In this document: one piece after another, positions 17,577 through 20,228 of the stretch
Numbering within the stretch: the stretch's first letter is position 1
Layout of the letters: each line of letters begins with the position of its first letter
Assembly (NCBI RefSeq): GCF_015709515.1
Contig: NZ_JADNQZ010000059.1
Coordinates: 434,001-498,000 of the forward strand
Reading direction: 5' to 3'
Length of the DNA: 64,000 nucleotides
From: Methylocystis sp. H62
GTDB lineage: Bacteria > Pseudomonadota > Alphaproteobacteria > Rhizobiales > Beijerinckiaceae
Notes under the pieces: generated by a model
Database searches by the model: none
The model's input: the letters and a program-made list of their open reading frames with translations, nothing else
Told to the model about the DNA's origin: nothing
Translations under genes and position numbers: made by a program

Positions 17577-17693
17577 AAGCGCTTAGAGCAGGTTCCGAAA
17601 AAGTTGACAGACTTTTTCGATGAGAACCTGCTCCAATTTGATTTCGAGCGATTTCTTGTCGATCACATGATTCGATGTGATCGATAAGCGCTT
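17577..17693. repeat. Palindromic element family F, filling the gap between two convergent stop codons
   Basis: Outer arms AAGCGCTTA and TAAGCGCTT enclose two hairpins: GAGCAGGTTC...GAACCTGCTC (17586-17633, with an inner GAAAAAGT...ACTTTTTC) and GATCACAT...ATGTGATC (about 17661-17682). It begins one base after the stop of the cysteine-rich gene, and its last base is the first base of the glyS stop. Both hairpins could act as bidirectional terminators. The AGAGCAGGTTC sequence is one I associate with Hyphomicrobiales interspersed repeats. Confidence 0.8.
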
Positions 17694-19996
17694 TAGGCGG
17701 TCGCGCTTTCGCCTGCGATCTTGCCGAAATCGGCGACGCCCATCATCACGCGGCGCAATTCGGCAAGCAGCCGCAACCGGTTCAACCGCAGATCGGCGTT
17801 GTCGGCGTTGACCGTCACATCGTCGAAGAAGACGTCGACCGGCTCGCGAAGTTTTGACAGCGCGCGCATGGCGCCGGCGAAGTCTTCCTTCGTAAGATGC
17901 TCCGCCGTTTCTTCGCGCGCGCGGGCGATGGCGGCGGCAAGTTTGTGCTCCTGCGGCTCGATGCGCAGGTTCGGCGCATGGCGATGCGCATAGGCGTCCG
18001 GCCCGTCCTTCTTCTCTTCGGCTTTCAGAATGTTGCTGGCGCGCTTATAGCCGGCGAGCAGGTTCCTGCCGTCGTCGGTTGAGAGGAATGTGTCGAGCGC
18101 CTCGACTTTACGCGTGATCATGAGCAGATCGTCCTGTAGCGGCGGATTCCCTTCTCCCGCTGGCGGGAGAAGGTGGTCCGGCGAAGCCGGATCGGATGAG
18201 GGCGATAACCCCTCACCCGGCTCGCTCCGCGAGCCACCCTCTCCCGCAAGGGGAGAGGGTAGGGCGCCAAGCGCCGCATCTATCAGATCGTGTCTGGCCC
18301 CCTTGTCGCGCAAGTAGACCTTCAGCCGATCGATAAAAAATTCGAGGAGGTCCGCCGCAACGTCATGCCCGGACTTGTTCCGGGCATCCACGCCGTCACG
18401 TTGCGCGTGGATGGCCGGGACAAGCCCGGCCATGACGCCGTGGAGCGGCAAGCGCAATCCATTCTCCAGCACGATCCTGATGACCCCCAACGCCGCTCTG
18501 CGCAGCGCGTAAGGGTCCTTGCTGCCCGTCGGCTTCTCATTGATCGCCCAAAACCCCACAAGCGTGTCGAGCTTGTCGGCGAGCGCCACGGCGATCGACA
18601 CGGGATCGGTCGGGATGCGGTCGTTCGGCCCCTGCGGCTTGTAATGTTCCTCGATCGCCGCGGCGATGCTGGCGTCCTCGCCTTGCGCGCTGGCGTAATA
18701 GCGCCCCATCAGCCCCTGCAATTCGGGGAACTCGCCGACCATTTCGGAAACGAGATCGGCCTTGCACAAAGTCGCCGCGCGTTCGGCGAGAAAGCAGTCG
18801 GCGCCGACGATCGGCGCAAGCTCTTTCGCCAGCGCCGCGATCCGCTTCACGCGCTCGCCCTGCGTCCCGAGCTTTTCGTGAAAGACGATGGCGTCGAGCT
18901 TCGGCAGACGCTCTTCGAGCCTCGTCTTGAGATCGGTCTCGTAGAAGAATTTCGCGTCCGAGAGACGCGCGGCGATGACGCGCTCATTGCCGGCGACGAC
19001 CGTCGCGCCGCCGTCGGAGGCTTCGATATTCGAGACGAGGATGAAGCGGTTCGTGAGGGCGTCGGCAGTCGGCAGTCGGTCTTCGGTCTTCGACGGCCGA
19101 CCGCCGATCGCCGACTGCCGAAGCACGAAACATTTCTGATTCACGCGGATCGTCGCGCGAATGACTTCCGGCGGGATCGACAGAAAGCTCTCGTCAAACG
19201 CGCCCATGAGCGTCACCGGCCATTCGACAAGGCCCGCGACTTCATCGAGCAGGCCCGGGTCTTCGACAAGCTCCAGTCCTTGCGCGAAGGCGAGATCCTT
19301 TGCGTCATGCAGGATGATGTCGCGGCGGCGCGCTGGATCGATGACGACTTTGGCGCGCTCGAGCGAGAGCGCATAATCTTCGAAGCGCTTCACGCGAATG
19401 GGCTGCGGCGCCAGGAAGCGATGGCCGTGGGTCACATTGCCCGATGCGATTCCGTCGACCTCGAAACGGACGATATCGGGCGTTTCGGTCTCCGGTCCGA
19501 AGGTCGCGACAATGGCATGGAGCGGGCGCACCCAGCGCAGCGAATCCCCGCGCTCGGACGCCGCGCCCCAGCGCATCGACTTCGGCCAGGGAAAGCTCTT
19601 GACGATCGCCGGCAGAAGTTCAGCCAGAACGTCGATCGTCTCCGCGCCGGCGCGCTCGATGACGGCGAGATAAAACTCGGCGCCTTTCTTGTCCTTCGCG
19701 ACCGTCGCCTGATCGAGCGAGGCGAGGCCGGCGCTCTTTAGAAAGCCGGCGACCGCCGCCTCCGGCGCGCCGACGCGCGGACCTTTGCGCTCTTCGCGCA
19801 GATCCGGCTGGCGCGACGGCAGGCCGACCACCTGTAGCGCGAGGCGGCGCGGCGTCGCATAGGCGACGGCGCCTTCATAGGTCAGGCCGCGATCGACGAG
19901 CGCATTGGTGACGAGCCGCTTCAGGTCGTCCGCCGCCTGCCGCTGCATGCGCGCCGGAATTTCTTCGGAGAAAAGTTCGAAAAGGAGATCAGACAT
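17693..19996 (-). CDS. glyS: Glycyl-tRNA synthetase beta subunit, carrying three in-frame palindromic insertions
   Basis: Beta chain of the alpha2beta2 glycyl-tRNA synthetase. The start [16 protein letters not shown], the central NQKCFVLR...[11 protein letters not shown] and the C-terminal DALY-like region ([29 protein letters not shown]) are all in frame. Length is 767 against about 690 for the family. The excess is explained by three segments that are repeat DNA: residues about 291-312 (nt 19061-19123), 520-545 (18361-18437, translated [10 protein letters not shown]...SGHD) and 579-616 (18149-18260, [11 protein letters not shown]...LPPAGEG). The reading frame is open throughout, so the protein is probably functional. 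glyQ is not adjacent; trxB lies upstream after another palindrome. Confidence 0.95.
18149..18260. repeat. Palindromic element family C, copy 1, inside glyS
   Basis: Four hairpins in a row: CCTTCTCCCG..CGGGAGAAGG, TCCGGCGAAGCCGGA, GGCTCGCTCCGCGAGCC and ACCCTCTCCC..GGGAGAGGGT. The same order appears at 36246-36413. It is translated in frame in glyS as about 37 extra residues rich in Pro, Gly, Ser and Glu. Confidence 0.85.
18361..18437. repeat. Palindromic element family G, inside glyS
   Basis: Ends CGTCATG and CATGACG with arms GCCCGGACTTGTTCCGGGC and GGCCGGGACAAGCCCGGCC. It encodes the residue string beginning GLVPAIHA on the glyS strand, which I associate with an abundant Rhizobiales-type repeat. 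It adds about 26 codons in frame. Confidence 0.85.
19061..19123. repeat. Palindromic element family H, inside glyS
   Basis: GTCGGCAGTCGGCAGTCGGT faces CGATCGCCGACTGCCGA, with an internal GACGGCCGACCGCC. Its 63 bases equal 21 codons and interrupt the otherwise standard glyS stretch between KCFVLR and NRFILVSN. Confidence 0.75.
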
Positions 19997-20060: not shown

Positions 20061-20228
20061 CACCCTCCCCTTGAGGGGGAGGGTCGGACTGCGAAGCAGT
20101 CCGGGGTGGGGTGAAAGCAGCTTTCATTCGACGCTCGTACAGCGCGCCGCATATTGTGTCGAGCGCGCGTGGGGGTCGTCACCCCACCCCGCGCCTTCGG
20201 CGCGACCCTCCCCCTCAAGGGGAGGGTG
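20061..20228. repeat. 168-base palindromic element with perfect 16-base terminal inverted repeats
   Basis: Terminal arms CACCCTCCCCTTGAGG and CCTCAAGGGGAGGGTG are perfect complements. Inside, CGGACTGCGAAGCAGTCCG with GGGGTGGGGTGA pairs with TCACCCCACCCC next to a GCGCCTTCGGCGC hairpin. It occupies most of the 257 bases between trxB and glyS. It carries no open frame and may be a MITE-like relic or a REP variant. Confidence 0.8.

Follow-up and report, generated by a model that had tools for sequence, protein, structure and literature searches.

Introduction

Short palindromic repeats that are tolerated inside proteins are a known kind of element. In Rickettsia, palindromic elements of 105-146 bp lie in frame in conserved proteins as well as between genes (PMC2229807). 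GTAG REPs with RAYT are small palindromes that are often arranged as dimers and are sometimes intragenic (PMC3733652). The CGTC REPs form a superfamily that includes the Rickettsia elements RPE-4 and RPE-6; they are described mostly as head-head dimers of units with a CGTC tag, 9-bp stems that start with ATG and end with CAT, a loop of 4-5 nt and a CCA tail (PMC3733652). Intragenic CGTC REPs have been reported in uvrA, uvrB, recB, and tRNA synthetases, among others, with loops or linkers considered neutral places for them; insertion at the same site has been reported for recB of two Xanthomonas species, in passages that report no synonymous-site test (PMC3733652). The main text of that paper mentions neither glyS nor glycyl nor Methylocystis.

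It has long been asked whether REP-like repeats are junk or serve a function, and the synonymous sites of a host gene provide an internal clock for this question. In searches of the open-access literature, we found no description of palindrome insertions in GlyS or of synonymous constraint on REPs. Here, we follow up a sequence-only reading of a 64,000-nt stretch of the Methylocystis sp. H62 genome (the window, to which positions refer unless a contig is named), which had proposed that glyS carries three separate palindromic elements as translated insertions. Our best explanation, held with considerable confidence, is that the three segments are short palindromic repeats of three families inserted in frame, that one of them (element A) probably spread by recombination, and that the stems of another (element B) are apparently constrained at the nucleotide level.

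Results

Three palindromes of different families lie within the glyS reading frame

GlyS is the beta subunit of the heterotetrameric glycyl-tRNA synthetase. We identified glyS (17693..19996, minus strand) from its open reading frame and profile matches (PF02092, E 2.5e-188; TIGR00211, 750 bits). The frame is open across all 767 codons, palindromes included. The source genome (G000) contains one full-length glyS match, plus one weak short match, as well as the partner glyQ (PF02091, E 2.9e-139).

Element A (site 1; 19059..19124, minus strand) is 66 bp long, has 33-nt arms that are 76% complementary, and encodes a 20-letter peptide at residues ~292-312. Element B (site 2; 18361..18437, minus strand), at 77 bp, has 33-nt arms with 88% complementarity and encodes a 25-letter peptide at residues ~520-545. 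Element C (site 3; 18149..18259, minus strand; 111 bp), which encodes a 38-letter peptide, is a composite of two units (18149-18202 and 18210-18259) with a 7-nt spacer between them; its borders were set by reading the sequence, and the inverted-repeat search gave several arms within 18140-18273. Compared with dinucleotide shuffles, RNA folding gave z-scores of -5.03 for A, -8.66 for B, and -7.19 for C, with 0 of 200 shuffles as good for each element. The three belong to different families, and each family is represented by further copies on the 602,452-bp contig. The inverted repeats, shuffle z-scores, open frame, and other contig copies thus bear out the proposal of three in-frame palindromic segments of three families.

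The sequence-only reading had also attributed the extra length of the 767-residue protein to these segments. The arithmetic is fair, as GlyS proteins of the genus measure 697-840 aa with a median of 741 (n = 34, the window's own counted). Site 2 calls for a qualification: many relatives hold a non-palindromic segment of similar or greater length there, so that palindrome B occupies a segment of variable content rather than being a plain addition to a vacant site.

As in Rickettsia, the glyS elements lie in frame in a conserved gene and have intergenic copies. Elements A and B are shorter than the length given for the Rickettsia elements, and C measures 111 bp. The suggested likeness to Rickettsia palindromic elements was right in kind and, for B, extends to a published family, as the CGTC REPs include RPE-4 and RPE-6.

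Other palindromes were seen beside glyS and in glyQ. A family E palindromic element lies directly upstream of glyS, at ~20062-20227, before the next gene; its counterpart in genome G010 is of different length. The 5′ end of the glyQ open frame holds a 61-bp palindrome (contig C59, 194968-195028; ~24 of 30 positions paired, by score) upstream of the start of the family match.

That the segments reflect an assembly or annotation artefact is scarcely credible. Two congeners (G009 and G025) do have runs of N inside the site-1 element, but the same elements, junctions, and frame recur in separate assemblies of several species. The runs of N also account for the apparent glyS splits in these two genomes, which we had considered as frame-breaking insertions. 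Since the N runs (loci L034 and L035) fall within site 1, hairpins may hide more such insertions in assemblies. G009 also contains a second, partial glyS 3′ end (L037; G009:C1:1944500-1946000), with a 95-aa open frame that is 88% identical to residues 679-767.

glyS is the only gene on the contig with more than one element

Using profiles built for eight palindrome families (for three, the seeds came from glyS) and our own simple gene caller, which assigned 88% of contig C59 (602,452 bp) as coding, we located 60 element sites: 44 intergenic, 4 at gene edges, and 12 inside called genes. The 12 intragenic elements are spread over 10 genes; three are in glyS, the only called gene of this contig with more than one. 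In a simulation, the probability that any gene would receive three of 12 elements was 0.002.

Apart from the three in glyS, clearly internal elements occur in UvrA, CobB, and CobN (names by NCBIfam). In UvrA (C59 319867-322902; L128/L129), element A lies in frame at residues 258-278 and encodes a GlyS-like peptide, so both genes apparently read it in the same frame; with stop-to-stop open frames of 995-1095 aa among the UvrA matches in the genus, this site may also be polymorphic. The cobalamin genes cobB (C59 284625-286025) and cobN (C59 291979-295407) carry in-frame palindromic elements at residues 229-270 and 414-448, respectively. The other intragenic elements are within the first 110 residues of their frames. 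At least one of these, at residues 78-107 of TyrS, is probably upstream of the true start, since the family match begins at residue 149.

As a control set, we took ~148 kb around glyS, with 124 genes of ~100 aa or more and 205 orthologue pairs from five congeners (107, 66, 19, 9, and 4 pairs, thin in three of the five). Internal indels of at least 10 aa were present in nine genes. A palindrome score of at least 12 was found in glyS only, the top score elsewhere being 11.

The same three loops of GlyS receive long inserts across the family

We searched for GlyS in 39 genomes of the genus, of which 38 matched, and in a sample of 79 genomes of the family, of which 78 matched; three genomes were common to both sets. 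We examined 107 GlyS loci and obtained 104 complete proteins, having excluded L034 and L035 (runs of N) and L095 (two pieces, at a locus with N); the short extra fragment L037 and genomes with a partial or no GlyS match were not included. The 104 proteins are 688-871 aa long (median 730).

Relative to the family core, insertions of at least 8 aa in these proteins lie mainly at window residues 295-311, 523-543, and 578-619. Such insertions are present in 14 of 104 proteins at site 1, 71 at the main gap of site 2, and 48 at site 3. Residue 357 is a further frequent insertion place (30/104; 9-20 aa), where no clear palindromes were detected in the tested rows of at least 24 residues (z up to 4.1). 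Places 151, 402, and 705 are each used by one or two proteins.

At site 1, seven of eight segments of at least 22 residues were palindromic (z 5.7 to 24.2; the exception, L036, had a z of 0.5), and six further insertions are the shorter element A. Nine of 12 site-3 segments of at least 26 residues were palindromic, with z from 7.5 to 14.1 (exceptions: L039, 2.5; L006, 0.3; L040, -0.9). Among site-2 segments of at least 30 residues, 14 were palindromic (z 7.3 to 15.8), belonging to 12 Methylocystis and to L049 and L038 of two other genera; all remaining tested segments had z <5, and L102 was over the testable length.

A scan of named genomes added at least 80 further GlyS loci; nine of these repeat a protein already in the set, which leaves 175 distinct sequences among 184. 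Among the matches listed, added palindromic cases were found at site 1 in Rhizobium tropici (z 7.1) and at site 3 in one genome each of Bosea (z 27.9), Mesorhizobium (z 17.6), and the Beijerinckiaceae (z 7.7). The scan also revealed segments that were long yet non-palindromic, at site 1 in L217, L232, and L234 and at site 3 in L175 and L232. Like the window organism, Enterovirga aerilata (L225, whose GlyS is the same as that of L038) is palindromic at each of the three sites, but the sequences differ. GlyS is a recurrent acceptor of palindromes, with different sequences at the same three places in several genera.

Relatives that hold the same segments without palindromic DNA would speak for an ancestral GlyS fold that is palindromic by chance. 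We found this in part, at site 2 only: the site is filled in most relatives, most of them non-palindromic, and E. coli GlyS also has residues there. Sites 1 and 3 usually hold short segments, and the medians of 5 and 4 residues, respectively, in 184 sequences speak against an ancestral fold, as do the matches of the segments to dispersed repeats and the presence of other palindromes at these places in sister species. We therefore consider this explanation very improbable and continue to regard the segments as inserted repeats.

Site 2 (window positions 18350-18440, residues ~520-548) is hypervariable in the family, at 5-164 residues (184 sequences; among the relatives concerned are L023, L060, L062, L101, and L102). 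Since it varies without palindromes in most of the family, tolerance at this site does not need a palindrome. Three long non-palindromic site-2 inserts had no Pfam match at E up to 1. The long tested site-2 inserts were mostly non-palindromic, and those of L023 and L101, which are from different genera, look related by eye.

We located the sites on an AlphaFold2 model made from 48 aligned GlyS (mean pLDDT 86.5). In the model, site 1 is the turn of a beta-hairpin with strands 290-294 and 314-322 (pLDDT <50 at 304-309); site 2 is a loop of lower confidence that joins helices 518-530 and 543-564 in the HD region; and site 3 is a disordered linker (pLDDT <50 at 581-617) before helices that match anticodon-binding domains. 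Among solved structures, the model is closest to 7yse (Z 35.6, rmsd 5.5 over 636 residues), which shows E. coli GlyRS with tRNA. In E. coli GlyS, the HD domain comprises residues 341-540, and Arg531 is among the contacts to the tRNA acceptor-stem backbone (PMC8464048, PMC9908026). The alignment places site 2 at E. coli residues ~502-523, with the end of B ~12 residues before the arginine equivalent to Arg531 (window residue 557).

To the question raised by the sequence-only reading, whether GlyS has loops that tolerate insertions, the answer is yes: in the model, all three segments lie in a turn, loop, or linker, and these are the main places of long inserts in relatives. The residues of the segments would presumably be kept in mature GlyS and be neutral for catalysis.

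Element A probably spread by short-tract recombination

The elements are patchily distributed. In the clade of element A, which contains 14 species, six carry A, six are empty, and two have other elements. On a tree of 37 glyS genes with the three sites removed, 10 state changes are required at site 1, 7 at site 3, and 4 for the presence of B. At site 3, L003 and L033 hold a counterpart of 18149-18202 only, and four species hold a different palindrome. With three families and differing patterns of presence and absence, the idea of three separate acquisitions stands.

In each 63-bp flank of the element, the six carriers of A are closer to one another than to the six species without an insert (permutation p 0.009 each), by a test of 11 sequence intervals in which p was uncorrected and the relatedness of species ignored. 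The signal fades to p 0.09 for 129 bp upstream and 0.04 for 129 bp downstream, and there is none further upstream or beyond residue 420. Element A is probably one insertion that passed between Methylocystis species by short-tract homologous recombination. Separate insertions or precise excisions could also produce the patchiness; the flank signal favours recombination over these, not conclusively. As other congeners carry other element families at site 1, several insertions must have occurred there.

A search of the source genome for the RAYT-type transposase Y1_Tnp (PF01797) gave 0 matches at E 0.001; the same search was positive in 5 of 14 control genomes. In this respect, and in the CGTC tag of B, the locus differs from GTAG REPs with RAYT. 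The absence of a PF01797 match agrees with the report that CGTC repeats seemingly have no dedicated transposase (PMC3733652).

We also asked about the inserted peptides. pN/pS was 0.66 in A and 0.84 in B versus 0.06 and 0.11 in the core, and the peptide itself shows no sign of selection in A and B. A stop-free design of the elements was rejected, since 2.8 of 6 frames are open compared to 3.4 of 6 in random stretches, which is not more.

Element B is a dimer of CGTC-tagged REP units

Element B is a head-head heterodimer with the tags outside. Unit 2 (18361..18390, plus strand) consists of a CGTC tag (18361-18364), a first stem arm (18365-18373), a loop (18374-18378), a second stem arm (18379-18387), and a CCA tail (18388-18390). 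Unit 1 (18408..18437, minus strand), a common type in the genus, likewise has a CGTC tag (18434-18437), a 9-bp stem, a 5-nt loop, and a CCA tail. A 17-nt spacer (18391..18407) separates the units. The stems, ATGCCCGGA/TCCGGGCAT and ATGGCCGGG/CCCGGCCAT, are 9 bp long, start with ATG, and end with CAT; in both units the loop is CTTGT and the terminal CGTC tag is unpaired. Unit 1 is multicopy, with 26 matches of at most three mismatches in the source genome and 0 for a reversed control. In all features tested, element B agrees with the published CGTC-tagged REP dimers (PMC3733652).

The stems of element B are frozen at synonymous sites

In the 12 Methylocystis species with complete sequence of element B, 0 of 36 stem positions vary. 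Elsewhere in the element, variable positions number 0 of the 7 counted in the tags, 1 of 10 in the loops, 2 of 6 in the CCA tails, and 12 of 17 in the spacer. Third codon positions are variable at 0 of 12 sites in the stems versus 69 of 96 in core residues 420-515 of the same species (p 1.4e-6), and fourfold sites at 0 of 9 versus 25 of 34 (p 8.6e-5). Each unit alone gives the same picture, with 0 of 6 third positions variable (p 0.0008) and 0 of 5 or 0 of 4 fourfold sites (p 0.003 and 0.01). Along the gene, pS falls from 0.564 over the ten upstream codons to 0.000 in the first arm, rises to 0.425 in the middle, drops again to 0.023 in the second arm, and reaches 0.337 just downstream. Recent arrival of B does not explain these values, as the spacer has diverged to the level of neutral sites although the stems on both sides of it are frozen.

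Gene conversion from other genomic copies, instead of selection, could also keep the stems alike. The glyS copy of unit 1 is identical to copies elsewhere in several genomes (nine further exact copies in G005, for example), leaving this unit open to conversion. For unit 2, conversion is unlikely: among 39 genomes searched, its exact sequence was found at glyS only, in 10 genomes, and a further three have a glyS copy that differs by one mismatch in the loop or tail. Other copies with the outer stem of unit 2 mostly close with C-G. As an A-T closing pair is present in another stem type in some genomes, the argument against conversion rests on the whole of unit 2. Overall, we regard conversion as an improbable cause of the freeze, and nucleotide-level constraint on the B stems appears to be the best reading of the pattern. 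Such constraint would reflect selection on the DNA or RNA sequence.

Frozen stems are also found outside glyS. We chose five intergenic dimer sites by near-match to the unit, a choice biased to intact stems, and then sought three sites by their flanks. At one of these (site 252), a CGTC dimer was present in six of six species with 0 of 36 stem positions variable, whereas the spacer varied in 21 of 44 columns. The constraint may therefore be a property of the repeat and not of glyS. At site 249, the dimer was present in two of six species, which differ in their unit-2 stem type. Site 251 was intact in one of five species, reduced to a single unit in two, and without a unit in two (L279 and L280 were left out).

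We rejected a general freeze of all element families. In a comparison of G000 with G010, six of nine orthologous intergenic elements were not more conserved than both flanks; three (of families G, D, and D) were. Apart from these nine, two elements were absent or short in G010, one had no flank match, and one genic element was unplaced. In glyS, the signals of the other elements are weaker than that of B: element A gave p 0.004 for third positions and 0.06 for fourfold sites, and element C, represented by one species pair, gave p 0.008.

Discussion

The mechanism we propose has three parts. Palindromic repeats of three families inserted in frame into glyS; element A then probably passed between congeners by short-tract homologous recombination; and element B is a CGTC-tagged REP dimer with stems under apparent nucleotide-level constraint. 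Two findings go beyond the known tolerance of proteins for such repeats: palindromes recur in these three GlyS loops in several genera, and the CGTC stems in glyS are frozen at synonymous sites. The sequence-only reading had anticipated neither the recombination signal around A nor the invariant stems of B.

A stronger claim is that the elements are useful as DNA or RNA (as a binding-protein site, or in mRNA processing or translation pausing) and kept for that, not merely tolerated. The low pS of the arms relative to the middle and flanks, the invariant fourfold sites, the confinement of exact unit 2 to glyS, and the frozen stems of the flank-located intergenic dimer all point this way. However, B is missing from site 2 of many congeners and is therefore dispensable, conversion could keep unit 1, and in most of the species looked at, the dimer is missing or degraded at two further sites located by their flanks; at one of these, the two carriers differ in stem type. 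Moreover, A and C give weaker signals, and the glyS stems, being invariant, offer no compensatory pairs, so that a structural role remains putative. We regard usefulness of the elements as a real possibility that falls short of an even chance, and prefer insertion and tolerance of the segments with apparent constraint on the B stems.

Slightly more tentatively still, the stems of CGTC REPs might be functional in their own right, and those in glyS might be under purifying selection at synonymous sites in at least 12 Methylocystis species, as a candidate site for a DNA- or RNA-binding factor. If so, an essential enzyme gene would be host to a repeat under a constraint of its own, and REP copies in coding sequence would supply a neutral clock for proving REP function in general. 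In glyS, that clock indicates that the stems of one repeat family have not drifted. GlyS is also a natural test case: across dozens of species, three fixed loops carry an element, a replacement, or none, which is useful for studying the acceptance of new segments by proteins and the spread of repeats that lack a recognised transposase.
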